Assembly: GCF_030538285.1 (NCBI RefSeq)
Contig: NZ_JAUNUG010000021.1
Span: 1 to 51,541, forward strand
DNA: 51,541 nucleotides
Reading direction: 5' to 3'
DNA from: Corynebacterium sp.
GTDB lineage: Bacteria; Actinomycetota; Actinomycetes; Mycobacteriales; Mycobacteriaceae
The translations under genes were made by a program, and so were the position numbers. The notes under the pieces were generated by a model. It had not been told where the DNA came from and did no database searches. It saw only the letters and a program-made list of their open reading frames with translations. This document shows, in pieces, positions 5,707 through 47,521 of this stretch (its first letter is position 1; every line of letters starts with the position of its first letter).

Positions 5707-6854
5707 TGGCCTACACACTCGCAGAGGTCGCCTTCCTGGCGGCCCACTCGGACGACATTGTGGACGCCACCGCCGGGCTTTCATTCACCCGCACTTCTGT
5801 GCTTGACGACGCCGCCGCCCTCCGCGCCCGTTTCGGCGAACATGGTCGGGCCGTCGCCGAGCTGGCCCAAGCCCGCCGCGCCGCGGCGGCCGGAGGCAAG
5901 TTCCCCGCCCACTGGCTCACCGACCTCGACGCCGCCCAGCAAGCGACGCCGCAGGCGGTGGCGGCGCAACGCGCCGCCCGCCTGCGGCGCATCCTGGGCG
6001 AGGACGCACTCATCCATGATGTGACGTGCTCGGTGGGGACGGAGGGGGCGTCGATAAGCGGGCCGTACCTGGGCAGCGACCTGGACCCGGTCCGACTGGC
6101 GATGGCACGGCACAACCTGGGTGCCAATGCCTGGCTCATCCGGGCGGATGCGACGGTGCCGGCCAGCCGTGGCGCCGATGTGATCGTGGCGGATCCTGCC
6201 CGGCGGGCAGGGGGAAGGCGCATCACCCGCCCTGATCAGCTGCTCCCGCCGCTGCCGGCTCTGCTGCACGCCTGGCCCGGCCAGGAGATGGCCGTGAAAT
6301 GCGCGCCTGGCCTGGACTTCTCCGGGTGGGAGGGGCTGGTGAGCCTCGTCTCCCTCGACGGCGGGGTTAAAGAAGCCTGTCTGTATACCCCAGGATTAAG
6401 TGAGGGTGCCCGGCGTGAGGCAATAGTCATCAGCGGCGAGCATGTCGATCAGCTCACAGACTCCCAGCCGGATGATGTCGGCGCGGCAGAACCGGGACGG
6501 TATCTCATCGACCCGGACGGGGCAGTCGTGCGCGCCGGGCTCGTGCGCCACTACGCGGCCCGGGAGGGATTGTGGATGCTCGATGAACGCATCGCCTACC
6601 TCACTGGCGACCGCATTCCCGCTGGACGCAGCGGTTTTCCCATCCAGGAGATCGTGCCGCTGAAAAAGCTCAAGGCGGCGCTGGGCCCGGATATCGGCTC
6701 GCTGGAGATCCTCGTGCGCGGTGTGGACGTCGATCCGGACGTACTGCGGAAGAAGCTCAAGCTGAAGGGCACGCGCGCGGCGGCGGTGGTGTGCACACGG
6801 ATCGGCACCCAAGGGGTGGCCATCGTGTGTGGGCCGCGCGAACACCGAAACTAA
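5706..6854 (+). CDS. Class I SAM-dependent methyltransferase with THUMP-like C-terminal domain
   Basis: 382 residues. The middle holds a Rossmann methyltransferase core: SVGTEGASISGPYLGSDLDP matches the SAM loop and acidic residue, and VIVADPARRAGGRRI the DPARR catalytic-loop signature of this actinobacterial family. The C-terminal approximately 80 residues (KKLKAALGPDIGSLEILVRG...) look like the THUMP-like domain, suggesting RNA as substrate; this is inference from the family. ATG 5706 overlaps the Nudix stop. A GTG at 5676 in frame lies inside the Nudix gene and is less likely. One GGCGTCGATAAGC copy (6047-6059) forces a rare ATA codon. Confidence 0.85.
   Translation: MAYTLAEVAFLAAHSDDIVDATAGLSFTRTSVLDDAAALRARFGEHGRAVAELAQARRAAAAGGKFPAHWLTDLDAAQQATPQAVAAQRAARLRRILGEDALIHDVTCSVGTEGASISGPYLGSDLDPVRLAMARHNLGANAWLIRADATVPASRGADVIVADPARRAGGRRITRPDQLLPPLPALLHAWPGQEMAVKCAPGLDFSGWEGLVSLVSLDGGVKEACLYTPGLSEGARREAIVISGEHVDQLTDSQPDDVGAAEPGRYLIDPDGAVVRAGLVRHYAAREGLWMLDERIAYLTGDRIPAGRSGFPIQEIVPLKKLKAALGPDIGSLEILVRGVDVDPDVLRKKLKLKGTRAAAVVCTRIGTQGVAIVCGPREHRN
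6047..6059 (-). repeat. Interspersed 13-mer GCTTNTCGACGCC, copy 1 (N=A)
   Basis: In the methyltransferase gene; reads Ala-Ser-Ile-Ser with a rare ATA codon. Confidence 0.75.
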
Positions 6855-6887
6855 GGGTTGCCTTGGTTGTACCGGCGGAGCCTAGCG

Positions 6888-6893
6888 TAGACT
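6888..6893 (+). promoter_or_regulatory. Probable -10 of the etfB-etfA-nifS operon
   Basis: TAGACT about 40 bp before etfB, in a region without other coding potential. TTGGTT at about 6873 is a weak -35 candidate with a long spacer. It implies a leader of about 34 nt carrying the AAAGG ribosome site. Assigned by eye only. Confidence 0.45.
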
Positions 6894-6933
6894 CTCTGCA
6901 GACTTCCCCTAACCCCTAGAAAGGTGACTGCCG

Positions 6934-7731: not shown

Positions 7732-7758
7732 CCCTCGACCTCACAAAGGAGCATGCAC

Positions 7759-8709: not shown

Positions 8710-9825
8710 ATGCGTCACTTCCTCGACCACGCGGCGACCTCGCCCATGCGGCAGGTGGCCGTTGATGCATGGGTGGAGCACGCCGGGATGCTCAACCCCG
8801 GAGGTCAGTACGCCGCCGGGCGCGCCGCCCGCCGGGTGCTCGATGATGCCCGCGACCTCATCGCCGAGCTTCTCGACGCCGACCCGGTCGAGGTCATCTT
8901 CACCGGTTCCGGCACGGAGGCCGACAACCTGGCCGTGACCGGCCTGTTCCGGGCCTCCGACCTGACACGCGTGGTCACCTCGCCTCTGGAGCACTCGGCG
9001 GTGTATGAGACGGTGCAGGCCCTCGGTGCGGACGTGGTGTGGCTGCCCGTCGCCGACGGCCGGGTCAGTGATCTGGCGGCGCTCGATGAACCGGCTGCCC
9101 TGGCGGCGTGCATGTGGGCGAACAATGAGACCGGCGCGGTGCAGCCGGTCGCGGAGATCGTCGCCCGGGCCTCGGCGGCGGGCACCCCCGTTCACGTGGA
9201 CGCTGTGCAAGTTCTCGGCCGTCTGCCCGTCTCATTCCGGGAGCTGGGGGCGACCACCCTGGCGGCCAGCGCCCATAAATTCGGCGGCCCCCGCAGCGCA
9301 GGACTGCTGCTGGCCCGCCGCAGCCCCGCGCCCGCGCCCGTGCTGCACGGTGGCGGTCAGGAGCGGGGGATCCGCCCGGGCACCCTGGACGTGGCCTCCG
9401 CCGCTGCCATGGCCGCGGCACTGCAGGAGGCGGTAACCGACATGGCCGCGGAAAAAACGCGCCTGTCCGCGCTGCGCGATCGTCTGCGCGAGGGCATCCT
9501 GGCCCGGGTGGATGATGTGGTGGTGCACACCTCGGAGCCCGCGCTGCCCGGACACCTCCATCTGTCGTTCCCGGGCGCGGAGGGGGACAGCCTCATCATG
9601 CTTCTCGATGCCCTCGGCATCGCCGCCTCCACCGGTTCCGCGTGCGCCAGCGGTGTCAACCGGGCCAGCCGAATCCTCCTGTCGATGGGGGTCAATGAAC
9701 GAGCCGCCCGAGGGGCGGTGCGTTTCACCCTGGGGCGTACCTCCACGGACGCGGATGTCGACGCGGTGCTCGCCGTGATCGAGGATGTGGTGGCCCGGGC
9801 GCGGTCGGCGGGGATGGCCGGCTGA
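8710..9825 (+). CDS. Cysteine desulfurase, NifS/IscS family
   Basis: 371-residue PLP enzyme that takes sulfur from cysteine as an enzyme-bound persulfide. The Schiff-base Lys is in SAHKFGGPRSAG (about 190) and the persulfide Cys in STGSACASG (about 312). ATG 8710 abuts the etfA stop, so it is in the etf operon. mnmA, which needs such sulfur for tRNA 2-thiouridine, lies 2.6 kb downstream, so sulfur supply to MnmA is a plausible job (inference). An exact motif copy sits at 8868-8880, in the LLDA reading. Confidence 0.93.
   Translation: MRHFLDHAATSPMRQVAVDAWVEHAGMLNPGGQYAAGRAARRVLDDARDLIAELLDADPVEVIFTGSGTEADNLAVTGLFRASDLTRVVTSPLEHSAVYETVQALGADVVWLPVADGRVSDLAALDEPAALAACMWANNETGAVQPVAEIVARASAAGTPVHVDAVQVLGRLPVSFRELGATTLAASAHKFGGPRSAGLLLARRSPAPAPVLHGGGQERGIRPGTLDVASAAAMAAALQEAVTDMAAEKTRLSALRDRLREGILARVDDVVVHTSEPALPGHLHLSFPGAEGDSLIMLLDALGIAASTGSACASGVNRASRILLSMGVNERAARGAVRFTLGRTSTDADVDAVLAVIEDVVARARSAGMAG
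8868..8880 (+). repeat. Interspersed 13-mer, copy 2 (N=C)
   Basis: In the cysteine desulfurase gene; reads Leu-Leu-Asp-Ala. Confidence 0.75.
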
Positions 9826-10044
9826 TCAGTCCCAGGAGCGGCGTCGGAAAGCAATTACCCGCCGCAGGTCCCGCGCGCGGTGCGGATCGAAACGGGCGGC
9901 GTCCAGGATGTGCTCGGCGGCATCCTCCGTCAAGCGCACCGCCCCCTCGGCGACAGTGCCCGCGACGGAGCGGGGCAGACCGAGGTCATCAGTAAACATC
10001 AGGAAACGGCGGCGGGTGAGCCCGGTGGTCGAACCACGGGTCAC
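9826..10044 (-). CDS. Hypothetical small protein (72 aa)
   Basis: GTG start at 10044, stop abutting the cysteine desulfurase stop (convergent). The product is basic with many Arg and no membrane segment; the middle reads TVAEGAVRLTEDAAEHILDA. I do not recognise a family. It lies 41 bp downstream of the spermidine-synthase-like gene on the same strand. A perfect palindrome (10060-10075) sits just upstream of the start and may be its operator. The existence of the gene is supported mainly by its snug fit between neighbours. Confidence 0.5.
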   Translation of the reverse strand: MTRGSTTGLTRRRFLMFTDDLGLPRSVAGTVAEGAVRLTEDAAEHILDAARFDPHRARDLRRVIAFRRRSWD

Positions 10045-10059
10045 CTCACATCTTTAAGG

Positions 10060-10085: not shown

Positions 10086-11006
10086 CTAGGTGCTGTTTGA
10101 TTCGCTTGTCGACGGCACATCGGTACGATCGTGCCGCTCGTCCAGGGTGCGGGGGAGGGTGCCGTCGAAAAGCGCGCGCGTCCAGCGCTCATCCTTGTAG
10201 TGGGCGGGAACGGCCCCGCCCAGCAGCACCCGGGCCAACTGCGCAGCCGCGATCGAGCCCTCGGCGGGCAGCTCGTGGTCGGAGCCGATGAGGATCATGT
10301 TCCCGTAGCGGCGCCCCTTGAGCATCGGCGGATCCGCGATGACCGCGACGTGCTCGAATACCTCCGCCATGCCCGCCAGCTCTGTTTTCGTGCCGATGAG
10401 GCTGGAGTAATCACCGCAATTGGAGATGTACAACCCGCCGGGCGTGAGCGCGGCGTGGACCGCGCGGAAAAACTCGGGCGTCGTCAGATCCAGCGGGGTG
10501 CGGTTACCGGCAAAGACATCGCGGATGATGATCTCCCGACTGCCGGGATAGAAACCGCGGGTGACCTCCCCGGCCTCCCCGACGCGGATCTTCACCGTCG
10601 GGGCGCGGGGAATGTCGAACCATTCGCGGACATAATCAGCCAGCTTCGCATCGAGTTCGACGACGGTGTGGCGGGAGGAGGGCCACAGGTGCGCGAAGTA
10701 GCGTGCCAGCGAACAGGCGGCACCGCCCAGATGCGTGACGCGGAGGGAGGCGGGATCGAAGCGGGAGTCGACCTGCTGCTCAATGATCGCCGCGATCCAC
10801 CGCATGTACTCGAACTCGAGGACGTCCGGGCGCCCGATCTGCACATGTGAGCTGGGCACCCCGTTGATCATGAGGGTCCAGGCGTCCGGGTGGAAGGTGT
10901 CCGGGACGAGCTCCGCGGTGCCGGTGGAGATCTCGTAGGTGCCCTCCGCCGCCCCGGTCGACGGTGAGTCGGCGTGGTTCTTGCGGTTTCTCCGGGAGCG
11001 GGCCAT
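10086..11006 (-). CDS. Spermidine-synthase-fold SAM-binding protein
   Basis: 306 residues with the Rossmann core of polyamine aminopropyltransferases: HLGGAACSLARYF (nucleotide loop), VVELDAKLADYVREWF and EIIIRDVFAGNRTP. The usual GGGDGG loop is altered. The second Asp of the D-x-x-D-P substrate region is not seen, so true spermidine synthesis is doubtful. Actinobacteria have many such 'spermidine synthase-like' proteins of unknown substrate. ATG 11006 has TACCAT 8 nt upstream, suggesting a near-leaderless mRNA. Both termini are charged and low-complexity. Confidence 0.78.
   Translation of the reverse strand: MARSRRNRKNHADSPSTGAAEGTYEISTGTAELVPDTFHPDAWTLMINGVPSSHVQIGRPDVLEFEYMRWIAAIIEQQVDSRFDPASLRVTHLGGAACSLARYFAHLWPSSRHTVVELDAKLADYVREWFDIPRAPTVKIRVGEAGEVTRGFYPGSREIIIRDVFAGNRTPLDLTTPEFFRAVHAALTPGGLYISNCGDYSSLIGTKTELAGMAEVFEHVAVIADPPMLKGRRYGNMILIGSDHELPAEGSIAAAQLARVLLGGAVPAHYKDERWTRALFDGTLPRTLDERHDRTDVPSTSESNST
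10121..10136. repeat. Near-copy of the 10060 palindrome
   Basis: CGGTACGATCGTGCCG differs by one base from the palindrome at 10060-10075. The centres are 61 bp apart. It lies inside the 3' end of the spermidine-synthase-like gene. Confidence 0.5.
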
Positions 11007-11030: not shown

Positions 11031-12173
11031 TCAGGGGCGGAGCGAGGGGTTGGACAGCAAGTGATCCGCGGCGAAGGGGAGGGCGAACTGGAGGAAGCCG
11101 TAGGACGGAACTATGACCAGTGAACGTTCGAGAAGAGCCTTGCGTGCCATCGACAAGGCATTGGCCGGCACCCCCAAGTGTTCGGCAATGGCGCCTGTGC
11201 GCACGGGCTCACCCGCGGGGGACAGCTCCGCCAGAGCGTAGAGCAGGCCCAACTGTTGATCGGGGACATCGCGGAAGGAGGGCCCGTGGATTTGAATTCC
11301 GATCCTCTCCACCGCACTGTCCCTGATTGATCCAATGTGGTGGGATGTGATCTGGTTCGACTTCTCCTGATTGGCGCGTGCCCAGGACAAGGATCCGACG
11401 ACCTGCATGAGGTAGGGATATCCCGCGCTGAGGGATACGGCAGCGTCGACGGCGTCGGCGGTCATTGCTCTGCCTCCCGATTGTGCGGTATCGACGAAGA
11501 GGATCCGTGCTTCGTCTTCGCTCACTACGGTCAGATCCACGCGGTGGGCACGCCGCAGGAACGTCGTTCCTTCCTGTTGTAGAAGCTTATCGACGCCCGC
11601 CGGCAGGCCAGCTGCCGCAAAGGCGATGTCGTAGTTGTCCCTCATCAGATCCTGGACCGCCGTGGCCAGGACGTGTTGGTCCTGGGGGTCGGCGCTCTGC
11701 AGTTCGTCGAGGGTGATGAGGATGCCGGAGCCGCGGTCGCGGAGGAGTCCGGCGACGTGCCGGAGGCGGGTGATCAAGGTGGGGGTTGGTGCGCTGTGTG
11801 ATGGATCAGCGACCGAGGTGATGCTCCCCATCCCCGCCAGGGACATACCGGTGAGCATCCTTTTGCCGGATGGTCCCTCCAGCTCTTCTGCTATGTGGGG
11901 CAGGGTGGTGTCGGTAAGCGTGTCCACCATGCCTATTCCCGGGTAAGCACGCACGGGAACCCAGCCCTGAGATTGAGCGGTGTCCTCTAGTTCGTTGAGG
12001 AGAACTGTTTTACCGATTCCGCGGGCGCCAGACAGGATCAAAGTCCGGAACGGGCTGCCGATCCCCTCGGCGAGTCCGAGCGAGAAGGCATCCACGAGGG
12101 TTGAACGGCCTGCGAGCACCGTGGGGGAGACCCCGAAGCTGGGGCGGAACGGGTTCCGGAGAGGATTAACCAT
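11031..12173 (-). CDS. AAA ATPase with C-terminal winged-helix region, possible autoregulated accessory gene
   Basis: 380 residues. Walker A is GARGIGKT (49-56) and Walker B ILITLDEL (151-158). The C-terminal part (ELSPAGEPVRTGAIAEHLGV...) reads as a winged helix, as in Orc1/Cdc6-like and archaeal-type ATPases. Function is unknown. ATG 12173 is 7 nt after TAAACT (12186-12181, minus), so the transcript is probably leaderless. That -10 is embedded in one of two exact 17-bp direct repeats. Codon use is visibly less G+C-rich than in neighbours, which suggests transfer. It separates the desulfurase and mnmA regions. Confidence 0.75.
   Translation of the reverse strand: MVNPLRNPFRPSFGVSPTVLAGRSTLVDAFSLGLAEGIGSPFRTLILSGARGIGKTVLLNELEDTAQSQGWVPVRAYPGIGMVDTLTDTTLPHIAEELEGPSGKRMLTGMSLAGMGSITSVADPSHSAPTPTLITRLRHVAGLLRDRGSGILITLDELQSADPQDQHVLATAVQDLMRDNYDIAFAAAGLPAGVDKLLQQEGTTFLRRAHRVDLTVVSEDEARILFVDTAQSGGRAMTADAVDAAVSLSAGYPYLMQVVGSLSWARANQEKSNQITSHHIGSIRDSAVERIGIQIHGPSFRDVPDQQLGLLYALAELSPAGEPVRTGAIAEHLGVPANALSMARKALLERSLVIVPSYGFLQFALPFAADHLLSNPSLRP
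11585..11597 (+). repeat. Interspersed 13-mer, copy 3 (N=A)
   Basis: In the minus-strand AAA ATPase gene; reads Gly-Val-Asp-Lys. Confidence 0.75.
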
Positions 12174-12388: not shown

Positions 12389-13474
12389 ATGCGCGTACTG
12401 GCAGCGATGAGTGGCGGCGTCGATTCGGCGGTCGCCGCCGCGAGGATGGTGGAGGCTGGCCACGATGTGGTCGGCGTACACCTGGCGCTCTCACGTGACC
12501 CGCAGACCGTGCGCGAGTCCTCCCGTGGCTGCTGCTCCCTGGAGGATTCGGCGGATGCGCGCCGGGTGTGCGACACCCTCGGCATCCCCTTTTACGTGTG
12601 GGATTTCTCGGACCGCTTCCAGGCGGACGTCATCGATGATTTCGTGGATTCCTACGCCCGCGGGGAGACCCCGAATCCGTGCCTGCGTTGCAACGAGAAG
12701 ATCAAGTTCGCGGCCCTGCTCGACCGCGCGGTGGCGCTCGGTTTTGATGCCGTGGCCACCGGCCACTATGCGCTTATCGACGACGCCGGGCACCTGCGCC
12801 GCAGCGTTGATCCAGCCAAGGATCAGTCTTATGTGCTCGGCGTGCTTACCCGCGCCGAACTTGACCGTTGTCTGTTCCCGGTGGGCAACACGGAGAAGCC
12901 GCAGATCCGCGAGGAGGCTGCCCGCCACGGCTTCTCGGTGGCGAAAAAGCCTGACTCCTACGACATTTGCTTCATCCCGGACGGCAACACCCAGGCCTTT
13001 CTCGGCTCGCGCATCGGGCTGCGGCCAGGCATGGTCGTGGATCAGAACGGCCGCGAACTGCGCGACCATGATGGTGCTTGGAACTTCACCATCGGCCAGC
13101 GCAAGGGCCTTGACCTGCGCGATCCCGCCGTCGATGGTCGGCCCCGCTACGTCACGGATATCGACGCGGCCAGCGGCACCGTCACCGTCGGTCCCCGCGA
13201 TGCGCTGTCTGTCGGCGTCATCCACGCTGACCGGCTCAAGGTGCTCCACCCGGACATGGCGGGGGAGTTCGATGCCCATGTCCAGGTCCGCGCCCACGGT
13301 GGGGTGGTGGCCTGCCGCGCCGTCGTCTGGGAGGATAAGATGACGCTCACCCTGGCCGAGCCCCTGCAGGGAGTGGCCCGCGGCCAGGCCGCCGTGCTCT
13401 ACCAGCCGGATCCGGATGGTCAGGGCGATATCGTCCTCGGGTCCGGCACGATCTGCGGGACGGAGACAGCGTGA
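12389..13474 (+). CDS. mnmA: tRNA-specific 2-thiouridylase MnmA
   Basis: Forms 2-thiouridine at wobble position U34 of certain tRNAs using ATP and sulfur from a cysteine desulfurase. It has 361 residues. The PP-loop is [10 protein letters not shown] (about 8-17). The catalytic cysteines lie in [10 protein letters not shown] (about 98) and [14 protein letters not shown] (about 193); TGHYA and the C-terminal beta-barrel GQRKGL region are also present. GGGAGG precedes ATG 12389. The stop overlaps the next start by 4 nt (GTGA). Confidence 0.96.
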
Positions 13475-14463
13475 GCGCCTATGGCCTCGGGCCCCTGCCG
13501 GGCACCTCGCTTAGCGACGCCGCCGACATCATCCGCTCCGAGACCGGCGACCTTCCGCACGTCCCTGACCTGCCGGCCCGCGGTCTCGGCGCCGACGGAG
13601 TGGGCCGCACTGCTGCGCTGCTGGAGGCCGTGAGCGTCGACCGCGGCCCGCGCTCATGGATCATGACCGACCGCCCGCAGCTGCTCACGCGCCGCACCCG
13701 CGATCTCCTCGACCGGGACCTCGATGAGCTCGAGGAAGCCTGGGGCACCACCGTGCCCGACCTCAAGGTGCAGGTCACCGGACCCTGGACGCTGGCCGCC
13801 TCCATCGAGCTGGCCAGCGGCCACCTGGTGATCACCGACCCCGGGGCCCTGCGTGACCTCACCGAGGCACTCATCGAGGGCGTCAACGCCCACACCGCTG
13901 AGCTGGCCCGCCGCTTCCGCGCCGAGGTGGTGGTCCAGCTCGACGAATCGTTGCTGCCCGAGATCGCCGCCGGCCTGCCCGGTACCACCCGCTTCAACCC
14001 CATCCGCCCCGTCAACCCGAGGGACCTGGCCGAACGCCTGGCGGGTGTCGTGGAGGGGCTGGATGCGGAGCGGGTCCTGCTCAACCAGACCGGCTACGCG
14101 CCTTTGTGGGAGGTCGCCCGCGACTCCCGCGCCGAGACCGTCCTCGTCTCCCTCGACCAGGTTCAAGGTACCGCCCAGTACGACGGCTTCGGTCACACCA
14201 TCTCCGCCGGGACCCGCATCGGCCTGGGTGTTACCGGCCCAGCCGATCGCGTCGACGAACTCCACGAGCGCCCCCGCGAGCGGGCCGTCGCCGTCGCGCG
14301 TTTCTGGGAGCGTCTGGGCCTGGACCCACAGTGGCTCACCGAGCGCATCGATGTTCACCCCCGCGCCGGGATCCTCGAGGGGACACTTCTCGGAGCCGCC
14401 AACGCCTACCGCATGGCCCGGATCGTCGACCACATGCTGCGCACCGACGCCGGGGACCTGTAG
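13471..14463 (+). CDS. MetE-like (UROD/MetE superfamily) protein, C-terminal-domain type
   Basis: 330 residues related to the catalytic C-terminal half of cobalamin-independent methionine synthase, the form found next to mnmA across mycobacteria and corynebacteria. [15 protein letters not shown] and [17 protein letters not shown] fit this fold. The zinc-binding HxC/C set of true MetE is not evident in the translation, so methionine synthase activity is uncertain. GTG 13471 overlaps the mnmA stop, implying coupling. Confidence 0.75.
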
Positions 14464-17418: not shown

Positions 17419-19972
<2,554 letters not shown>

Positions 19973-21877: not shown

Positions 21878-23365
21878 ATGACCAGCTACATCGTGCCCGA
21901 TACCGGGCTGACCTCTCTCAGCGCCGCCGAACTGGCGGAGAAGATCCACTCCCGCGAGATCACCTCGCGTGAAGTTGTCCAGGCGCATCTGGACCGCATC
22001 GCGGAGACTGACGGGGAGCTCAACGCTTTCCTGCACGTCGGCGCGGAGGCTGCGCTGGCGGCCGCGGACGACGTCGATAAGCGTCTCGACGCCGGGGAAA
22101 CCCCCGCCTCGCCGCTGGCCGGCGTGCCGCTGGCACTCAAAGACGTCATCGTCACCGCCGATGCCCCGACCACCGGCGCGTCGAAGATCCTCGAGGGCTG
22201 GATGAGCCCCTACGACGCCACCATCACCCGCAAGCTGCGCGAGGCCGGCATCCCGATCCTGGGTAAGACCAACCTCGATGAGATGGCCATGGGCTCCTCG
22301 ACAGAGAACTCTGCCTTCGGCGCGACGAAGAACCCCTACGACCTGGAGCGCACCCCGGGTGGTTCCGGCGGCGGCTCCGCGGCGGCAATCGCGGCGGGCC
22401 AGGCTCCGCTGGCGATCGGCACCGACACCGGTGGCTCCATCCGCCAGCCGGCCGCGCTGACCAACACCGTCGGCGTCAAGCCGACCTACGGCACCGTCTC
22501 CCGCTACGGTTTCCTCGCCGCCGCTTCCTCCCTGGAGCAGGCCGGCCCGACGGCACGTACGGTTCTCGACGCCGCGCTGCTCCACGAGGTCATCGCCGGA
22601 CACGATCCTTTTGATGCCACCACCGTCGACCGCGAGCTGCTCAGCGTCGTCGCCGCCGCCCGCGAGGGTGCCAACGGTGACCTGACGGGCCTGAAGGTCG
22701 GCGTGGTCAAGCAGCTCAACCGCGACGAGGGCTTCCAGTCCGGTGTCCTGGCGAATTACCGCGCGTCACTCGACCAGCTGGCTGAGCAGGGCGCGGAGAT
22801 CATCGAAGTCGACTGCCCCCACTTCGATGACGCCTTGGCGGCCTACTACCTCATCATGCCGTGTGAGGTCTCCTCCAACCTGGCCCGTCTGGACGGCATG
22901 CGTTATGGTCTGCGCGTCGGCGACGACGGCACCCACTCCGCCGAGGAGGTCATGGCCCTGACCCGCGCCGCCGGTTTCGGCCCGGAAGTCAAGCGTCGCA
23001 TCATCCTGGGCACCTACGCCCTGTCGGTCGGCTACTACGACGCCTACTACCTGCAGGCCCAGCGCGTGCGTACCCTCATCGCGCAGGACTTCGCCAAGGC
23101 CTACGAGCAGGTGGACGTGCTGGTCACCCCGACCACCCCGACCACCGCCTTCAAGCTGGGGGAGAAGGTCTCCGACCCGGTCGAGATGTACAACTTCGAC
23201 CTATGCACTTTGCCGCTCAACCTGGCGGGCCTGTGCGGCATGTCGGTGCCGGCCGGTTTCGCGGAGGACACCGGCCTGCCGGTGGGCCTGCAGATCATGG
23301 CGCCCGCGTTCGCGGATGATCGCCTGTACAAGGTCGGCGCCGCCTTCGAGGCCGGGCGGGCCTAA
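21878..23365 (+). CDS. gatA: Asp/Glu-tRNA amidotransferase subunit GatA
   Basis: 495-residue amidase subunit that liberates ammonia from glutamine for correcting Glu-tRNA(Gln) and/or Asp-tRNA(Asn). The Ser-cisSer-Lys triad is visible: Lys in LALKDVIV (about 88), Ser in [10 protein letters not shown] (about 163) and nucleophile Ser in [10 protein letters not shown] (about 187). ATG 21878 is preceded by GGTGAGGAG. Two inverted near-copies of the 13-mer motif lie at 22070-22093. Confidence 0.96.
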
Positions 23366-28583: not shown

Positions 28584-29974
28584 GTTCCACCGTCCTGCCC
28601 CCGGCCCAGGCCTGGCGGGCACTCGCCGCCCTGTGCCTGGGGTTTTTCATGATCCTCATCGATCAGACCATCGTCGCGGTGGCCACCCCGGGGATCATGG
28701 CGGATTTTGACGCCCGCCTAGACCAGGTCGTGTGGGTCAGCTCCATCTACCTGCTGTGCCTGCTCGTCCCGCTGCTGTTCACCGGCCGCCTCGGCGATCG
28801 TTTCGGGCAGCGCCACCTCTTCCGCGTGGGCATCATCGTGTTCACCCTCGCCGCACTCGCCGCCACCCTGGCCCCGACCCTGGAGCTGCTCATCGCCGCG
28901 CGCGCCGTGCAGGGCATCGGCGCGGCGATCCTCACCCCGCAGACCATGAGCGTGATCAACCGCGTCTTCCCCCGCGAACGCCGCGGCTCCGCCCTGGGCG
29001 TGTGGGGCGCGGTCGGCTCGGTGGCCACCCTCATCGGCCCGGTGCTCGGCGGGTTCATCGTGTCCAGCGTCGGCTGGCGCGGCGTGTTCCTCATCCACCT
29101 GCCCGTGGGCATCCTGGCGGTGGTGCTGGCTACCCTGTGGGTGCCGCGCCTGCCCACCTTCGCCCGGCGTATCGACACCCCTTCTGTCGCCGTGTCCTTT
29201 ATCGGCATGACCGCACTGGTCGTCGCCGTGCAGCAGGGCCCGGGCCTGGGGTGGCCCGCCTGGGCCATCGCCCTCGGGATCCTCGGGCTGATCTTCATCG
29301 CCCTGTTTGTTCGCCTGCAGGCGAACGCGGCGTCGAGAAGCACGGAACCCCTGGTGCCGCTGCAGATGTTTCGCAACCGTAACTACTCGCTCGGCGTGTT
29401 TTCGATTGCGACGATGGGGTTCACGGCGTCGTCGATGATGCTGCCCGTCATGCTGTGGCTGCAGGACGGGCAGGGTTTAAGCTCCCGCGATGCTGGACTC
29501 ATGCTCATTCCGATGGCCGTTGTCGCGGCGGTCGCCTCGCCCCTGATCGGCCCCGCCGCCGATCGGCTGGACCCGCGGCTGCTCTCAGTCGGTGGTTTCG
29601 GCACGATGATCGCCACCCTGCTGCTCATCGCCTGGCTGATGGTCAGCGACGCGCCGTTGTGGATCTTCCTCGTGGCGGCGGGCCTGCTGGGGGTCGGCAA
29701 TGCGCTGGTGTGGGCCCCGAACTCGGCGACCGCGATGCGCACCGTCGACATCGCCTACATGGGGGCCGCCGCCGGTGTCTACAACACTGGACGGCAGACA
29801 GGTGCGGTGCTGGGTGCTGCCGCCGTCGGCGCGGCGATGCAGGTCGGCGCGGTTACTTACGGTTTCGTCCCTGGCCTCGCGGTGGCGTTGCTCCTGCCCG
29901 CCGCCGTGCTCGGTCTGGGCCTGGTGGCTGTGGCCTTCTTCCGCCCCGAAGCGCAGGTAGGACCACAGGTCTAA
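28580..29974 (+). CDS. MFS transporter, DHA2 (EmrB/QacA, 14-helix) family
   Basis: 464 residues with about 14 helices. Motif A is [14 protein letters not shown], followed by [19 protein letters not shown] (motif C region). DHA2 proteins export drugs or metabolites by proton antiport. ATG 28580 overlaps the previous stop (ATGA), yet TAGAGT ends 7 nt before it, so it may be both cotranscribed and transcribed alone without leader. The 13-mer copy at 29329-29341 forces a rare AGA codon. Confidence 0.9.
29329..29341 (-). repeat. Interspersed 13-mer, copy 8 (N=C)
   Basis: In the second MFS gene; reads Ala-Ser-Arg-Ser with a rare AGA codon. Confidence 0.75.
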
Positions 29975-32009: not shown

Positions 32010-32525
32010 ATGCGTGACCTCAACCTCGAGCACTGCCGACTCCTCGTGGTCGGCATCAACCCGGGACTGGTCTCCGAAGCAGTCGACGCGCCTTTCGCCC
32101 GCCCGGGGAACCGTTTCTGGCCGGCGCTCCACGCCGCAGGCATCACCGATTCGCTTATCGACGCCCGCTCCGGCCTCACCCCCGCTCACCTGGCGGAACT
32201 GCGCCGGGTTGGCCTGGGTTTCACCAATCTCGTGCCCCGGGCTACGGCCGTTGCCTCCAAGTTGAGCCGTGAAGAGTACGAGGAGGGCGGCCGGGTACTG
32301 GAGGAGAAGGTCGCCCGCCACGGACCGCAGATTGTCATGGTCGCCGGGATCGGTGCCTACCGGCTGGCTTATCGACGCCCGCGTGCCCGCGTCGGCCTCC
32401 AGCCCACGTCGATCGGCGGTGCTGAAACCTGGGTCGTGCCCAACCCCTCCGGCCTCAACGCCCACGAGACCGTTCATTCCCTGGCGCGCGCCTACCGCGA
32501 GGTGTGGGAGCACCTCTATAGGTAG
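32010..32525 (+). CDS. mug: G/U mismatch-specific DNA glycosylase (Mug/TDG family)
   Basis: 171 residues. Active-site motif VVGINPGLVSEAVDAPFARPGNRFW and the intercalation-loop motif NPSGLN identify the Mug branch of uracil-DNA glycosylases, which removes U or ethenocytosine opposite G. ATG 32010 follows the RhuM-Fic stop by one nucleotide. It converges on prpF with a 10-bp overlap. Two exact 13-mer copies, 214 bp apart, lie inside it in different reading frames. Confidence 0.92.
   Translation: MRDLNLEHCRLLVVGINPGLVSEAVDAPFARPGNRFWPALHAAGITDSLIDARSGLTPAHLAELRRVGLGFTNLVPRATAVASKLSREEYEEGGRVLEEKVARHGPQIVMVAGIGAYRLAYRRPRARVGLQPTSIGGAETWVVPNPSGLNAHETVHSLARAYREVWEHLYR
32153..32165 (+). repeat. 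Interspersed 13-mer, copy 9 (N=A)
   Basis: In mug; reads Leu-Ile-Asp-Ala. Confidence 0.75.
32367..32379 (+). repeat. Interspersed 13-mer, copy 10 (N=A)
   Basis: Second copy in mug, in another frame; reads Ala-Tyr-Arg-Arg with a CGA codon. Confidence 0.75.
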
Positions 32526-33466
32526 GCTTGCCCGCTCATCAAGATCCGGGCGGTGCGGGGCAGTGCCACCCATTCGAGCTCCTCGCCTTCAGCTCGCGCG
32601 GAGACCTCGACGTCGCCCTTGAAGTGCTGCAAAGTCAGTGCTTCCCGAGGTCCCGGAAGTACATCCTCGATGACGGTGTCGCCGAGTGCCACCGCGGCCG
32701 CCAGCGCGAGGATGCCGGTGCCGGGCAGGGCGTGGTGGATGCGGCCGACGCTCGTCATGACGACGCGGAGATCTGTACCCGGGGCGACCATGGCCACCCG
32801 GGGAATGGCTTTCGAGGGTTCGAGTCCCATGGCTTGAGCAGCGGCCACGCGGAGTCTTTCCAACCGCTCGAGTAGCGCAGCGTCGGCGTTGAGGGCGGCC
32901 ATCCCCAGGGCAGGATCCACGCCGACATCTGCGGCGCGGGTGATGACGATGGGGTTGGCGACGTCGATAAGCGACACCTCCACCCCATCCACCTGGCAGC
33001 GGCGGCCGGCGGGGAAGATGGAACCGCATTTCTCGCCGCCGGGGTTAAGAAAACGCATGTCGACGCGGTCGTCGTCAAGTACGAGCTCGAACTTAGCCTG
33101 CGAGTTGAGGTTCCACACGGTGGCGCGAGTGGCGCTGATAAGTCCGGTGTGGCGAGCATAATGCAGGACCGCGGAGGAGATGTTGCCGCAGTTACCCGAC
33201 CAGTCGACGCTCCTTTCGGTGGGGGAGACCTGCGCGAAAAGCGTCTCCAGGTCGGCGCGTTGCGAGGTGCCGACGAACATCACCTTCGAATTCGAGCTCA
33301 CGCCACCGCCCAGACCATCGACAGCCTGCGGATCCGGCGAACCGATCAACCGCAGGCACAACTCATCGCGCTCGGCCTGGGTGGCAGGCAGCGCGGACAT
33401 CGGCAGGAAGCAGGCTCGCGAGGTGCCACCACGGGCAATGGTGAGGGGCAGTGATTCCGGGAACAT
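32516..33466 (-). CDS. PrpF-family isomerase (methylaconitate isomerase-like)
   Basis: 316 residues, shorter than the usual 370-400 of PrpF. RGGTSRACFL at the N-terminus, SGNCGNIS (catalytic Cys region) and NPGGEKCGSIFPAGR (second Cys) are family motifs. PrpF enzymes isomerise small dicarboxylic/tricarboxylic acids, for example 2-methylaconitate in propionate breakdown. No other methylcitrate gene is nearby, so the substrate is open. Its start region is divergent from the BASS transporter, 23 bp apart. Confidence 0.82.
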   Translation of the reverse strand: MFPESLPLTIARGGTSRACFLPMSALPATQAERDELCLRLIGSPDPQAVDGLGGGVSSNSKVMFVGTSQRADLETLFAQVSPTERSVDWSGNCGNISSAVLHYARHTGLISATRATVWNLNSQAKFELVLDDDRVDMRFLNPGGEKCGSIFPAGRRCQVDGVEVSLIDVANPIVITRAADVGVDPALGMAALNADAALLERLERLRVAAAQAMGLEPSKAIPRVAMVAPGTDLRVVMTSVGRIHHALPGTGILALAAAVALGDTVIEDVLPGPREALTLQHFKGDVEVSARAEGEELEWVALPRTARILMSGQAYL

Positions 33467-34524: not shown

Positions 34525-36030
34525 ATGACTGCCGCGATTCACGACCTGATGGACTTCGACGAGGTCCTGGAGAAATTCGACCCCGTGATGGGCCTCGAGG
34601 TCCACGTCGAGCTGGCCACGGAGACCAAAATGTTCTCCACCAGCTCCGCCCACTTCGGTGCCGAGCCGAACTCCAACGTCGACCCCGTCTCCCTCGGCCT
34701 GCCCGGCGCCCTCCCGGTGGTCAACGCCAAGGGTGTCGAGTGGGCCATCAAGATCGGCCTGGCGCTCAACTGCCAGATCGCCGAGTCCTCCCGATTCGCG
34801 CGCAAGAACTACTTCTACCCGGACCAGCCGAAGGGCTACCAGATCTCGCAGTACGACGAGCCGATCGCCTACGACGGCTGGCTCGATGTCGTGCTCGACG
34901 ACGGCACGCAGTGGCGCGTCGAGATCGAGCGCGCCCACATGGAGGAAGACACCGGCAAGCTCACCCACATCGGCGGCGTCGCCGGCCGTATCCACGGCGC
35001 CACCGCCTCGCTGGTGGACTGCAACCGCGCGGGCGTGCCGCTCATCGAGATCGTCACCAAGCCGATCGAGGGCGCCGGCGAGCGTGCCCCGGAGATCGCC
35101 CGCGCCTACGTCACCGCCCTGCGCGAGCTGGTCAAGGCCATCGGCGTCTCCGATGCCCGCATGGACCAGGGTTCCATGCGCGTCGACTCCAATCTCTCCC
35201 TGCGCCCGATCGGCCAGCAGGAGTTCGGCACCCGCACCGAGACGAAGAACATCAACTCGCTCAAGTCCGTCGAGCAGGCCGTGCGCTACGAGATGATGCG
35301 CCAGGCCGCCGCCCTTGAAAACGGCGAGGAGATCATCCAGGAGACCCGCCACTACCAGGAGCTCGACGGCTCCACCCGCAAGGGCCGCCGTAAGGAGTCC
35401 GCCGAGGACTACCGCTACTTCAACGACCCGGACCTGCCGCCGGTGCTCGCGCCGAAGGAGTGGGTCGAGGAGATCCGCGCCACCCTGCCCGAGCTGCCGT
35501 GGGTGCGCCGCGCTCGTCTGCAGGAGGAGTGGGGCATCTCCGACGCCGAGATGCGCGACCTGGTCAACGCCGGTGCGCTTGAGCCGATCCTGGCCACCGT
35601 TGAGGAAGGCACCACCGCCGATGAGGCGCGTGCCTGGTGGGTCAACTACCTCTCCGCCGCGGCCCGCGAGCGAGACGTCGAACTCGAGGCCCTGGCCATC
35701 ACCCCGGCGCAGGTCGCCGAGGTCGTCAGCCTGGTCAAGGAGGGCAAGCTCACCACCAAGCTGGCCCGTCAGGCCGTCGACGGCGTGCTCGCCGGTGAGG
35801 GCACCGTCTCCGAGGTCGTCGCCGCGCGTGGCCTGGAGGTCGTGCGTGATGACGGCGCCATCGAAGCCGCCGTCGACGAGGCCCTGGCCGCGAACCCGGA
35901 CATCGTCGAGAAGTACCGGGCCGGCAACACCAAGGTCACCGGCGCCATCGTGGGTGCGGTCATGAAGGCCACCCGCGGCAAGGCCGATCCGGCGCAGGTG
36001 AACAAGCTCATCGCGGAGAAGCTCAAGTAG
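34525..36030 (+). CDS. gatB: Asp/Glu-tRNA amidotransferase subunit GatB
   Basis: 501 residues. The tRNA-binding kinase-like subunit of the amidotransferase. [17 protein letters not shown], then [18 protein letters not shown], and the C-terminal YqeY/GatB domain with [12 protein letters not shown] are full-length hallmarks. TAAAAT (34512-34517) is 7 nt before ATG 34525, so it is probably leaderless and transcribed apart from gatCA. A strong hairpin terminator follows at 36051. The stop codon is immediately followed by a 13-mer copy. Confidence 0.96.
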
Positions 36031-36042
36031 CTTTTCGACGCC
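36030..36042 (+). repeat. Interspersed 13-mer, copy 11 (N=T), non-coding
   Basis: Begins at the last base of the gatB stop codon and runs into the intergenic region, so no protein constraint explains it. Confidence 0.75.
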
Positions 36043-36050
36043 GCGTCAGG

Positions 36051-36090
36051 GGGCGCGCAGACCAGGTGGTCTGCGTGCCCTCTATACTTT
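36051..36090 (+). terminator. Hairpin terminator after gatB
   Basis: Stem of 13-14 bp: GGGCGCGCAGACCA (36051-36064) pairs with TGGTCTGCGTGCCC (36067-36080) across a two-base centre. TCTATACTTT follows. It separates gatB from the restriction-modification cassette. Confidence 0.75.
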
Positions 36091-36181
36091 GCACCACATC
36101 CATGCGTACATTTGTTCTAGCGGATGTCCGGGGTGTGAGCTATCCTTTGCGTGATATCAAAACCAGTGAAGGGAGGAGAAC

Positions 36182-38691: not shown

Positions 38692-38736
38692 GGTTTTTCT
38701 CCTCTAGAAACGGCTAACGGGGGCACAATGGGATCC

Positions 38737-39816
<1,080 letters not shown>

Positions 39817-42620: not shown

Positions 42621-43325
42621 ATGAAACGAGTGGTTGCAGTACTGGTAGCAGGCATCGTCGCCGTCATCGGCGCCGCCCTGCTTATCGACGTCCCCTCGTC
42701 CCCGACATCCCCACCGCCAGTCACCGAAGTCATCACGACGACGGTCGTGGAGACGACCGTCGCGGAACCTTCCCTGCTGGACTCATTGGAGGTGAAGGGG
42801 CGGGCGTCGAGAAGCGACTATGACCGGGCCGAGTTCGGCCAGGCCTGGAGCGATGACGTGCGCGTCGACGGCGGCCGCAACGGCTGCGACACCCGCAACG
42901 ACATCCTCCGCCGCGACCTCACAGACCCGGTCATCCGGCCCGGCACACACGGTTGCCTCGTCGAATCCGGCACCCTCCACGACCCTTATTCCGGGGAGAT
43001 CCTCGAATTCGTTCGCGGGGAACGCAGCGCTGAGGTCCAGATCGACCACATCGTTGCGCTTGCCGACGCCTGGCAGAAAGGCGCCCAAGCCTGGGACGAG
43101 GACACCCGCCGGGACTTCGCCAACGACCCGCTCAACCTCCTGGCCGTCGACGGCTCCCTCAACCAGCAGAAGGGTGCCGGTGACGCCGCCACCTGGCTGC
43201 CTCCCAACAAGGCCTTCCGCTGCGACTACGCCACCCGCATCGTTGAGGTGAAAGTCACCTACGGGCTGTGGGTCACTGCAGCCGAACGTGACGCGCTGGC
43301 GCGCGAACTCATGCGCTGCCCGTGA
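42621..43325 (+). CDS. Secreted HNH-family nuclease (DUF1524-like)
   Basis: 234 residues. The N-terminal MKRVVAVLVAGIVAVIGAALL is a signal peptide or anchor, then a Thr/Val/Pro-rich linker. The nuclease core contains VQIDHIVALADAWQKGA and the Asn-containing segment LNLLAVDGSLNQQKG; Cys pairs (GCDTRND...HGCLVES, FRCDY...LMRCP) fit a secreted disulfide-bonded protein. Related proteins are common outside cells in actinobacteria. TACGGT lies 9 nt before ATG 42621. Exact and near 13-mer copies lie at 42803 and 42680, the former with a rare AGA codon. Confidence 0.86.
   Translation: MKRVVAVLVAGIVAVIGAALLIDVPSSPTSPPPVTEVITTTVVETTVAEPSLLDSLEVKGRASRSDYDRAEFGQAWSDDVRVDGGRNGCDTRNDILRRDLTDPVIRPGTHGCLVESGTLHDPYSGEILEFVRGERSAEVQIDHIVALADAWQKGAQAWDEDTRRDFANDPLNLLAVDGSLNQQKGAGDAATWLPPNKAFRCDYATRIVEVKVTYGLWVTAAERDALARELMRCP
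42803..42815 (-). repeat. Interspersed 13-mer, copy 13 (N=C)
   Basis: In the HNH nuclease gene; reads Ala-Ser-Arg-Ser with a rare AGA codon. Confidence 0.75.
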
Positions 43326-43388
43326 TTACCCGGCGGCTCGCCGTTTCAAACACCGAGCACCGGGGGTGATCTGACTTACTCTGGCACC

Positions 43389-44300: not shown

Positions 44301-44316
44301 AGCTCTGGCTTCGTCA

Positions 44317-44347
44317 GGCCCCGCTGTCAACAGTGGCGGGGCCTTTC
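44317..44347 (+). terminator. Rho-independent terminator after the DoxX gene
   Basis: GGCCCCGC and GCGGGGCC arms (44317-44343) with a short inner pairing TGT/ACA, followed by TTTCG. It lies 16 nt past the stop and also faces the minus-strand glycosyltransferase stop 97 bp away. Confidence 0.8.
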
Positions 44348-44439
44348 GCCTGCCTGGGGTTAGGTGACGTGTCGATCGCCCGGTGTTTGGGCATTTTTGC
44401 TGTGCACATGCATGGCCGATATGCCCATTTGCAGGGGGT

Positions 44440-45681
44440 TTAGCGTGGCACCCGCCGCAGCGCCACCGCCCACGCCACCATCACCGCACCCGCCAGCCAC
44501 ACGAAGTCCGAGACCAGCAGCTTCTGCCAGAAATCCAGCGCATGGATGTCGATGGAGTCCCCGTACCACCACTTCGGCGGCTGGGTAATCACCAGCGCAG
44601 TCCAAGTGAACACCAGCGAGCCCAGCACTACGGGCCCGCCGAGCACCGTCAGGCAGCGCCACGCCAGGACGGGCAGCAGCAGGGTGAGCCAGATCCAGTG
44701 GTGGGACCAGGAGACGGGGGAAATCAGGAGCATGATGAGGGCGTTGACTAAGGCGGCGTCGATAAGCATGTTGCGGCGCATCAGCGCCACCATGAACCAC
44801 CCACCCAGCACGATGACCAGCAGCGACAACCCCAACCACAGACCGTTGACCAGGCCGGAATGTGCGTCGAGTTCCGCGCCGGAGGTGAACCAGCGCATGA
44901 TCATGCCCTTGAGGGAGCTGTTGGACTGGTAGACGGTGTTGACCCCGAACTCGGAACTCGAGCCCATGTCCAGCAACACCGAGGTGTAGAACTCTCTGGT
45001 GGCATCCCAACGGAACAGCGCCGCTACACCGGTCGCCAGTAGGGCGGACACCCCGGCGACGAGGATCGCCCGGAAATCTCGGCGCAGCAGGAAGTACAGC
45101 AGCATCGCCAGGGGAGTGAGCTTGATCGCCGCCGCCAGCCCGATGAGCCAGCCCTGCGGAAACCGGCGTTTGCGGGGCACCAGATCCAGCACCACCAGCG
45201 CCATGAGCACGATGTTGAGCTGGGCGAACCCGGAGTTCAGCCACACCGGCTCGATAAGCAGCACCACCGGCCATACCGCGGCGGTCAGCGCCGCCAGCGA
45301 CCAGCCCCGGAGGCGGGTGGCGGCCCGCAGCACGAACCACAGGCACAGCAAAACCAGCCCGGCGGACAACATGATCATGAGGTCACCGGCGAGATCATCA
45401 TCCGCCGCGGTGAACGGCAGCATCACCAGCGCGCCGAAGGGCGGGTAGATGAAGGGCAGGGCCAGGTCCCCGGCGTACATGGGCACCGAGTACATCTCGC
45501 CGCCGTCGCGGAAGGCGCGCACTCCCTGCAGGTAGATGATCATGTCGACAGGGAAGTCGGTGAGCATCATCTGGCGCCCGACAACGCCGAAACCCGCGAC
45601 CATCCCCAAAGCTGCCATGATTTTCAGCAGCGTATCGAGGGGGAGGGTCGCGGGCTTCGAAAGATCAGTCACCCGGCTCAT
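44440..45681 (-). CDS. GT-C membrane glycosyltransferase (GT87/DUF2029, mannosyltransferase-like)
   Basis: 413 residues with about ten helices. The periplasmic loop FRDGGEMYSVPMYAGDLALPFIYPPFGAL (split here by a conserved Tyr-Pro-Pro) is typical of GT87 polyprenyl-phosphomannose-dependent alpha-mannosyltransferases. These build lipoarabinomannan in Corynebacteriales; which linkage is unknown. SPVSWSHHWIW near the C-terminus is another family motif. ATG 45681 is one base from the ilvD stop; TAGCAT 7 nt before GTG 45672 offers a leaderless alternative. Sequence further upstream in frame belongs to ilvD. Confidence 0.82.
   Translation of the reverse strand: MSRVTDLSKPATLPLDTLLKIMAALGMVAGFGVVGRQMMLTDFPVDMIIYLQGVRAFRDGGEMYSVPMYAGDLALPFIYPPFGALVMLPFTAADDDLAGDLMIMLSAGLVLLCLWFVLRAATRLRGWSLAALTAAVWPVVLLIEPVWLNSGFAQLNIVLMALVVLDLVPRKRRFPQGWLIGLAAAIKLTPLAMLLYFLLRRDFRAILVAGVSALLATGVAALFRWDATREFYTSVLLDMGSSSEFGVNTVYQSNSSLKGMIMRWFTSGAELDAHSGLVNGLWLGLSLLVIVLGGWFMVALMRRNMLIDAALVNALIMLLISPVSWSHHWIWLTLLLPVLAWRCLTVLGGPVVLGSLVFTWTALVITQPPKWWYGDSIDIHALDFWQKLLVSDFVWLAGAVMVAWAVALRRVPR
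44755..44767 (-). repeat. Interspersed 13-mer, copy 14 (N=A)
   Basis: In the minus-strand GT87 gene; reads Leu-Ile-Asp-Ala. Confidence 0.75.
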
Positions 45682-45682
45682 G

Positions 45683-47521
45683 CTAGTCGACCTGGCGCAC
45701 GGCTCCCTTATCAGCGGAGGTGGCCATGGAGGCGTAGGCCCGCAGGGCCTTGGAGACGTAGCGCTCACGCTGGGCGGTCCACGGCTTGTCCGCAGCCTCC
45801 ATTGCTTCTCGACGCCGCGCGATCTCCTCATCCGGCACATCCAGCGAGAGGCGGCGGGTGTGGACGTCGATGGTGATCGGGTCACCGTTTTCGATCAGCC
45901 CGATGAGACCACCGTGGGCGGCCTCAGGCGAGATGTGGCCGATGGACAGGCCCGAGGTGCCGCCGGAGAAGCGACCGTCGGTGATCAGGGCGCACTTCTT
46001 GCCCAGGCCGGCACCCTTGAGGAAGGACGTGGGGTGCAGCATTTCCTGCATGCCGGGGCCGCCGGAGGGGCCCTCGTAGCGGATGACCACGACCTCGCCG
46101 GCCTGGACCTCGCGCTTGAGGATGATGGACACAGCCTCCTCCTGGCTGTCGACCACGCGGGCCGGGCCGGTGAAGGTCCACAGCTCCTCCTCGACGCCGG
46201 CGGTCTTGAGCACGGAGCCATCCGGGGCGAGGTTGCCGCGTAGGACCACCAGGCCGCCGTCGGCGGAGTGGGCGTGCTCCACATCGTGGATGCAGCCGTT
46301 GACCTGGTCGGTGTCCAGCGAATCCCAGCGGTTGTCGGTGGAGAAAGGCTCGGTGGTGCGCACGCCACCCGGGGCGGCGTGGAAGAGCTCGACTGCCTCG
46401 TCGATGGCCTGGCCACCACGGATGTCCCAGTCGTCGAGCCACTCACCGATGGTGGGGTAGACCACGGAGTGGACGTCCTCGTTGAGCAGGTTCGCGCGGC
46501 GCAGCTCACCGAGGATGGCGGGGATGCCGCCGGCGCGGTGGACGTCCTCGATGTGGTAGATGCCGTTGGGGGCGACCTTGGAGAGGCACGGCACGCGGTG
46601 TGAGATCTCCTCGATGTCGGCGAGGGTGAAGTCGATCTCGCCCTCCTGCGCGGCGGCCAGGGTGTGCAGGATGGTGTTGGTGGAACCACCCATGGCCATG
46701 TCCAGCGCCATGGCGTTGCGGAAGGCGTCCTTGGTGGCCACGTTGCGCGGCAGGACGGACTCGTCCTCCTCGCCGTAGTAACGGCGGCACAGCTCCACTA
46801 TGGTCTCGCCGGCCTGCTCGAAGAGGCGGCGGCGGGCGGAGTGGGTGGCCAGGGTGGTGCCGTTGCCCGGCAGGGACAGACCCAGGGCCTCGGTAAGGCA
46901 GTTCATGGAGTTGGCGGTGAACATGCCGGAGCAGGAACCACAGGTCGGGCAGGCGGATTCCTCGATCTGGGCCAGGCCCTCGTCGGAGACGTTCTCATCG
47001 GCCGAGGCGGCGATGGCGGTGATGAGGTCGGTCGGGGTCTGGGCGATACCATCGACAACCACGGCCTTACCGGCCTCCATCGGACCACCGGAGACGAACA
47101 CGGCGGGGATGTTGAGGCGCAGGGCGGCGTTGAGCATGCCCGGGGTGATCTTGTCGCAGTTGGAGATGCACACCATGGCATCCGCGGTATGTGCGTTGAC
47201 CATGTACTCGACGGAATCGGCGATGATCTCACGCGAAGGCAGCGAGTAGAGCATGCCGCCGTGGCCCATGGCGATGCCGTCGTCGACGGCGATGGTGTGG
47301 AACTCCTTCGGCACGCCACCGGCGGCGCGGACAGCATCGGCCACGATGTCGCCGACGTTCTTCAGGTGCACGTGCCCCGGGACGAACTGGGTATAAGAGT
47401 TGACGATCGCCACAATTGGCTTTCCGAACTCGTTTTCCTTGGTGCCGGTGGCACGCCACAGGGCGCGGGCGCCGGCGGCGTTGCGTCCGACGGTGGTGAC
47501 TTTGGATCGAAGCGGGAACAC
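45683..47521 (-). CDS. ilvD: Dihydroxy-acid dehydratase IlvD
   Basis: 612 residues, almost the same as in C. glutamicum. Dehydrates 2,3-dihydroxy acids to 2-keto acids for isoleucine, valine and pantothenate synthesis. Fe-S cysteines lie in [15 protein letters not shown] and [25 protein letters not shown] 7 nt upstream supports GTG 47521, which abuts the PH-protein stop. It works with ilvB beyond mscCG in the same pathway. The 13-mer copy at 45804-45816 reads as Arg-Arg-Glu with a CGA codon. Confidence 0.96.
45804..45816 (+). repeat. Interspersed 13-mer, copy 15 (N=C)
   Basis: In minus-strand ilvD; reads Arg-Arg-Glu-Ala using CGT, CGA and GCA codons. Confidence 0.75.

Follow-up and report, generated by a model that had tools for sequence, protein, structure and literature searches.

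What kind of element is the 13-mer GCTTNTCGACGCC, which a first-pass annotation found scattered over a 51,541-nucleotide stretch of Corynebacterium sp. DNA (contig NZ_JAUNUG010000021.1, the window)? Judging from genome comparisons, we propose that GCTTNNCGAYGNC is probably a DNA-uptake (self-recognition) sequence of Corynebacterium. The proposal is based on the pattern of the sites, since most of the features tested match those of uptake sequences. The window contained 15 exact copies, defined as full matches to GCTTNTCGACGCC (10 on the plus and 5 on the minus strand), at the places named in the annotation, and its expectation of 0.01 copies agreed with 100 dinucleotide shuffles. The ten one-mismatch copies that it had listed were all present among a total of 20, and with up to two mismatches 59 copies were found versus 8.6 expected. 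The assembly to which the window belongs (G000; 2,953,577 bases in 94 contigs) gave 779 exact copies (393 forward and 386 reverse), a few of which may stem from other DNA as the assembly is recorded as 96% complete and 6.73% contaminated. The reversed-pattern control gave 0 + 0, which rules out a genome-wide count near expectation.

The tolerance of individual positions was derived from a 377 kb sample of G000, consisting of the window and 20 further stretches and holding 97 exact copies. Near-misses were strongly enriched in the window and in the sample, and the positions were graded in tolerance. According to the one-mismatch table of the sample, position 5 is unconstrained (A 61%, C 23%), T is favoured at position 6 and C at position 12, positions 3 and 13 allow slight change, and the remaining positions are almost strict. 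Because of this grading the consensus was restated as the working core GCTT-NN-CGACG-N-C, GCTTNNCGACGNC, which has 10 fixed bases, is split by two free bases and is called dialect 1 (D1) below. The core occurs 28 times in the window and 1563 times in the assembly, corresponding to one copy per 1.9 kb or 529 per Mb. De novo word counting in the sample recovered the same signal, as nearly all top over-represented 10- and 12-mers overlapped the motif. In length and copy number the core resembles known uptake sequences, which have about 9-12 bases and hundreds to thousands of copies.

The annotation had argued that protein coding does not explain the copies and that selection acts on the DNA itself. 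Genes were called with a simple script (351 genes, 91% of the 377 kb sample) and their codons were shuffled synonymously 30 times. The called genes held 90 exact copies, whereas the shuffles averaged 2.4 and never exceeded 6; for the core, 177 copies stood against an average of 11 and at most 17. Of the 90 exact coding copies 64 were sense and 26 antisense, with all six frames represented, and the antisense copies rule out an RNA-level element. A further 6 exact and 11 other core copies were intergenic. CTT, which makes up about 6% of leucine codons overall, encoded the leucine in 92 of 160 cases of the favoured frame L[ILVF]D[ASPTVG]. These results, obtained with single-codon shuffles on the sample, bear out both arguments and support the conclusion that the motif is maintained at the DNA level and not by single-codon choice.

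Comparison with related genomes, a check put forward in the annotation, showed that the motif is widespread in the genus. By hand tally of the count table, 165 of 242 Corynebacterium genomes have at least 150 copies of the D1 core, G000 having the most. In another 17 genomes the D1 count stays below 150 while GCTTNNCGATGNC occurs 167 to 1090 times; this second form, dialect 2 (D2), is one base off D1 (GACG to GATG). The remaining 60 genomes have few copies of either dialect, some of them being above background, e.g. G088 (114) and G126 (104). Fifteen of the 165 genomes are mixed, being mostly D1 with 95 to 137 D2 copies. The second dialect was found de novo in G027, where 41 copies of GCTTNNCGATG in 120 kb contrasted with a single D1-form copy and 2 reversed-control copies; the same counting in G066 and G241, which like G027 have no exact copy, gave nothing clear. 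Strand totals were about equal in user genomes. Core counts mark G173 (314), G126 and G137 (104 each) and G202 (76) as weak users; where included, they were classed N in the comparisons of locus composition, trees, alignment and pilins, which left the D1/D2 result unaffected. G032 and G157 are weak D2 genomes by their counts. In eight genomes (G005, G006, G022, G056, G070, G071, G083, G091) about 700 to 1300 core copies were accompanied by only 24 to 65 exact 13-mers; the preferences at positions 5, 6 and 12 vary between species, which is a finer level of dialect.

Outside the genus the motif was not enriched in 348 genomes from 30 other genera of the family. Their D1 counts were at most 187 and below 40 per Mb, equal to or within about three times the reversed control, versus 529 per Mb in G000. 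Likewise, 55 other-genus records totalling 1.05 Mb had 6 D1 and 5 D2 copies versus 24 and 4 reversed controls. Base composition as the origin of the dialects was ruled out: the G+C content of the Tad loci of users ranged from 53% to 71% for D1 and from 54% to 67% for D2, so that each dialect spans low and high values.

The Tad locus was taken from 60 genomes and six genes were aligned as codons. This alignment contained 154 sites, of which D1 genomes contributed 100 D1 and 2 D2 sites, D2 genomes 49 D2 and no D1 sites, and N-classed genomes 3. As many as 125 of the 154 sites fell in 22 columns common to at least two genomes. Half of these columns (11 of 22) hold both dialects, the letter following the dialect of the species; the sole exception, in a single helicase column, was G217, a D1 genome carrying the D2 letter. 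Like uptake sequences, the sites in these six genes appear to have arisen by substitution at homologous positions, and they have subclade-specific dialects around a kept core.

In a tree of helicase and topA all 11 sampled D2 genomes form one clade nested in D1, together with the motif-less G043, and motif-less genomes also appear at several other places. Scattered lineages without the motif include G043, G232, G132/G207 and G011/G012/G029/G113. In the ComEC tree the mixed genomes G035, G052, G106 and G222 lie inside the D2 clade, which from this one gene would most simply be explained as a return from D2 to D1. The genomes G126, G137 and G202, with 76 to 104 core copies, possibly represent a stage of decay.

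We further looked at the first 20 kb or less of 19 secondary contigs of D1 genomes, 18 of which were readable; they are plasmid-like by size, not by annotation. The parts covered of these 18 contigs (317 kb) had no exact copies, compared with 36.5 expected from the density in their own genomes, and 2 core copies. The called genes of two of them encode, judged by eye, ParA-like and transposase-like proteins. The motif is thus scarce on putatively mobile DNA of the same cell, as are uptake sequences.

The distribution over replichores was followed in G224, a user genome in a single contig of 2533 kb, using 20 evenly spaced stretches of 20 kb (400 kb). The exact copies in these stretches, 42 forward and 47 reverse, were spread along the whole genome and over both replichores. 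Summed from the table for these 400 kb, 80 core sites had the leading-type orientation versus 72 the other, i.e., there was no clear replichore polarity, and a strong replication or segregation polarity was not seen in this genome. Both orientations without clear replication bias, as found here from strand totals and, for replichores, in G224 alone, are also a feature of uptake sequences. The spacing of all core sites was near random with slightly more even gaps (coefficient of variation, CV, 0.90 and 0.91). The forward exact sites listed for the first 762 kb of G224, provided that the list is complete there, are more evenly spaced than random (CV 0.79, P 0.008). As a separate observation, a repeat with TTTTCCCCGCGTAAGCAGGGATGAGCC-type words occurs about 148 times in the sampled stretches L029-L048 of G224 and probably forms a very long CRISPR array.

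An uptake sequence is favoured because the core occurs once per 1.9 kb on about equal strands and, in G224, without clear polarity, because near-misses are graded and copies occur in coding and non-coding DNA and in all frames, and because the motif is restricted to the genus. It is also favoured because the dialects follow lineage at the same aligned positions while the G+C ranges of D1 and D2 exclude a composition effect, because plasmid-like contigs are nearly free of sites, and because ComEC, ComEA and TadE-like genes are present and precedents for Tad and competence systems exist. In the mechanism that we envisage, a cell-surface DNA receptor of the competence apparatus would prefer DNA carrying the tag. 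This receptor may reside on, or work with, the Tad pilus, which must cross the mycolic-acid outer layer. Recombination of the preferentially imported kin DNA would spread and maintain the tag at hundreds to more than 1000 positions by molecular drive, a change in receptor specificity would convert sites one base at a time from GACG to GATG and create a dialect, and loss of uptake would let the sites decay. That the recogniser is an uptake receptor, as well as all transport steps and the history of switches and losses, is what we infer from the distribution of the sites.

Of the candidate genes for such an apparatus, ComEC is present in 241 of 242 genomes and a TadE-like gene (TIGR03816) in 80 of 80, with 77 scores over the cut-off; ComEA adjoins ComEC in nearly all of 21 loci. 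DNA uptake in Liberibacter depends on Tad pili (PMC8513845), and in the actinobacterium Micrococcus luteus tadA1, tadA2 and comEA are named as competence genes (PMC6667448). Since nearly all genomes carry them, the presence of ComEC or of the TadE-like gene was ruled out as a predictor of the motif. A second TadE locus was sought with PF07811, whose matches, in 15 of 59 genomes, were all weak and below the cut-off. Columns that separate the dialects, defined by a D1/D2 overlap of 0.15 or less, were found in TadZ (14/346), TadA (14/375), TadB (10/259) and TadC (3/183), and also in the flanking helicase (21/781) and topA (34/954). In a first set of genomes, ComEA had K ahead of its second GIG hairpin in 7/7 D1 and S in 5/5 D2 genomes; this residue was not readable in G131, G129 and G022. 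HolA and nadD, which lie beside ComEA, have more fixed D1/D2 differences than ComEA itself.

The ComEC gene of G124, a genome without the motif, has an internal stop, and in the motif-less G207 a gap of about 2.5 kb separates comEA and comEC. ComEA scores were weaker in several motif-less genomes, and from their sequences ComEA and ComEC look relaxed in some of them. The TadE-like protein has an insert in the middle in G137 and G202, and matches to it were split in G126, G137 and G202.

Several findings weigh against an uptake sequence. Competence and Tad genes also occur in motif-less genomes, so carrying them does not predict the motif. Type IV prepilins of the N_methyl family (PF07963) were found in 0 of 41 genomes, and with them a minor pilin receptor of the ComP/ComN type. 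The Tad pilins failed as dialect determinant, with 0 separating columns in Flp, TadE1 and TadE2. The ComEA residue failed as well: it is R (G224, G076) or Q (G234) in D1 genomes, Q in the D2 genome G097, which breaks the S rule, and S in 6/6 mixed genomes read (G035, G052, G106, G222, G150, G221), which are mostly D1. Among the matches listed, 100 of 267 forward exact copies of G224 lie in its first 762 kb versus 80 expected, possibly a mild replichore bias. Furthermore, neighbouring sites alternate in orientation (94/132 in G224, 110/174 in G000), and same-orientation pairs within 3 kb are scarce, with 46 versus 95 opposite pairs in G224 (label-shuffle mean 64, 0/2000 as low) and 106 versus 147 in G000 (P 0.008). 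In the Tad loci of further D1 genomes (71 alternating, 53 same) the effect fell short of significance, and D2 samples did not show it (10 alternating and 13 same in G027; 31 and 25 in Tad loci). These data hint at an action of the site in a single direction that reaches a few kilobases. In H. influenzae uptake is independent of site orientation (PMC1939737). Finally, no report of natural transformation in Corynebacterium was found among the matches listed.

The core sites of the window are given below. Exact sites were located by exact search and the others by mismatch and core search, except where indicated.

5493..5505, plus strand, core site GCTTCTCGACGGC (one-mismatch and core search)
5801..5813, plus strand, core site GCTTGACGACGCC
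6047..6059, minus strand, exact site GCTTATCGACGCC
8868..8880, plus strand, exact site GCTTCTCGACGCC
9840..9852, minus strand, core site GCTTTCCGACGCC
10104..10116, plus strand, core site GCTTGTCGACGGC; the next site is inverted, 57 bases away
10161..10173, minus strand, core site GCTTTTCGACGGC
11585..11597, plus strand, exact site GCTTATCGACGCC
12772..12784, plus strand, core site GCTTATCGACGAC
13509..13521, plus strand, core site GCTTAGCGACGCC
19564..19576, plus strand, exact site GCTTATCGACGCC
22070..22082, minus strand, core site GCTTATCGACGTC
24515..24527, plus strand, exact site GCTTCTCGACGCC
26477..26489, plus strand, core site GCTTTTCGACGTC
26658..26670, minus strand, exact site GCTTCTCGACGCC
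28103..28115, plus strand, exact site GCTTATCGACGCC
29329..29341, minus strand, exact site GCTTCTCGACGCC
32153..32165, plus strand, exact site GCTTATCGACGCC
32367..32379, plus strand, exact site GCTTATCGACGCC
32960..32972, minus strand, core site GCTTATCGACGTC
36030..36042, plus strand, exact site GCTTTTCGACGCC, directly after the frame ending at 36030
39793..39805, plus strand, exact site GCTTCTCGACGCC
42680..42692, plus strand, core site GCTTATCGACGTC
42803..42815, minus strand, exact site GCTTCTCGACGCC
43058..43070, plus strand, core site GCTTGCCGACGCC
44755..44767, minus strand, exact site GCTTATCGACGCC
45804..45816, plus strand, exact site GCTTCTCGACGCC
48887..48899, minus strand, core site GCTTTGCGACGCC

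The copy at 36030, which the annotation had called intergenic, is practically so, sharing one base with the stop codon of the preceding frame. Positions 36043-39792 are free of core sites, as might be expected of newly acquired DNA. This part of the window encodes, at 36182-38691, an N-6 adenine DNA methylase (Eco57I-like) followed by a 293-aa protein without family match, possibly a restriction-modification pair.

The annotation had listed uptake, Chi-type recombination, segregation and nucleoid-protein sites as candidate functions. Uptake fits best, segregation or replication polarity fits the replichores of G224 poorly, and the orientation effect makes Chi the main rival. A Chi-like hotspot would be read in one orientation by a translocating helicase-nuclease of the AdnAB type during break repair. 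The avoidance of same-orientation pairs up to 3 kb, with opposite pairs not avoided, fits such a one-direction site. A suitable nuclease domain (PF12705) is found in 41/41 genomes; most of the matches listed are adjacent pairs of long, AdnAB-like frames, and the listed matches include more than one such pair in G011, G024, G044, G060, G129, G132, G159 and G206. Known Chi sites occur in hundreds of chromosome-enriched copies, act in a direction-dependent manner and are expected to be rare on mobile DNA, as found here. However, they are leading-strand biased and shorter than ten fixed bases, whereas G224 has 80 versus 72 core sites in the two orientations; the nuclease domain is equally present in motif users and motif-less genomes, and the D2 samples lack the orientation effect. 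We therefore regard a Chi-like function as unlikely.

A chromosome-organising site, bound by a nucleoid protein or serving in condensin loading, segregation or replication, would account for the genome-wide, near-uniform distribution and the absence from plasmid-like contigs. The motif, however, is not palindromic and lacks clear origin/terminus polarity in G224, its gaps are just a little more regular than random ones, few or no copies are present in 60 of the 242 species of this one genus, and the dialect switches by one base, which makes this explanation quite improbable. Still less credible is a restriction, methylation or defence tag resembling the highly iterated sequence HIP1 of cyanobacteria. 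HIP1 offers a precedent, being abundant and linked to orphan methyltransferases (PMC4390886), and the window has an N6-adenine methylase, but the core is long, split and not palindromic, and this methylase lies inside the core-free stretch. That codon or dicodon usage or a common L-I/L-D-A peptide produced the motif as an artefact, as the 56 of 90 exact coding copies in the single frame CTT NTC GAC GCC might suggest, is next to impossible: the synonymous shuffles refute single-codon usage, antisense and intergenic copies exist, the rare CTT is forced, a lineage-wide switch to GATG occurred at the same places, and plasmid-like contigs have no exact copies.

An uptake function would mean that the trait arose a third time, outside the Neisseriaceae and Pasteurellaceae and in a genus with a mycolic-acid layer. 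According to one account, only these two families are known to discriminate DNA by such motifs (PMC12616744). Such a third origin would point to a link between the requirement for tags and the crossing of an outer barrier, and would predict natural transformation in the genus as well as dialect barriers to gene flow between its species. Among the matches listed, which cover open-licence papers only, no paper on this motif or on uptake sequences in Corynebacterium was found, and the 11 papers in which six motif strings of 10 to 12 letters occur gave no link to a Corynebacterium motif in their titles and abstract starts. The whole picture has, in our estimate, slightly better than an even chance of being right: a first uptake-sequence system outside the Proteobacteria, in a Gram-positive mycolic-acid genus, with an undescribed receptor perhaps tied to Tad and sites whose action seems to run in a single direction for a few kilobases; its two dialects, one base apart, occupy the same orthologous loci, with several losses and a likely dialect reversal in its history. 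Should uptake be the wrong reading, the motif would be a genome-wide signal of some other, unknown kind. In either case the 165 users (15 of them mixed), the 17 D2 genomes and the 60 genomes with few or no copies form a ready design for finding the recogniser.

Compared with known systems, the Corynebacterium motif shares with Chi sites the hundreds of chromosome-enriched copies and a seemingly direction-dependent action, but it is longer, has no clear replication polarity, occurs in one-base dialects and is missing in related species with the same nuclease domain class. HIP1 is similarly abundant and patchy among species (PMC4390886) but, unlike the Corynebacterium motif, palindromic. The uptake signal sequences of Pasteurellaceae differ in that the Corynebacterium core is split by two free bases, an AT-rich flank was not seen, and in two genomes sites of equal orientation are scarce within 3 kb of one another. 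They are similar in having a core with weaker positions, two subclade-specific types (Hin and Apl) and a motif that is weak in H. ducreyi, a lineage whose competence genes are broken (PMC1626085, PMC12616744). The DNA uptake sequences of Neisseriaceae, with eight dialects, have a different sequence; Corynebacterium is an actinobacterium with N_methyl type IV prepilins in 0/41 genomes, and two dialects were seen in it, with C or T at one place. What the two have in common are many copies and dialects that follow phylogeny and lie few bases apart around a kept core (PMC3630211).

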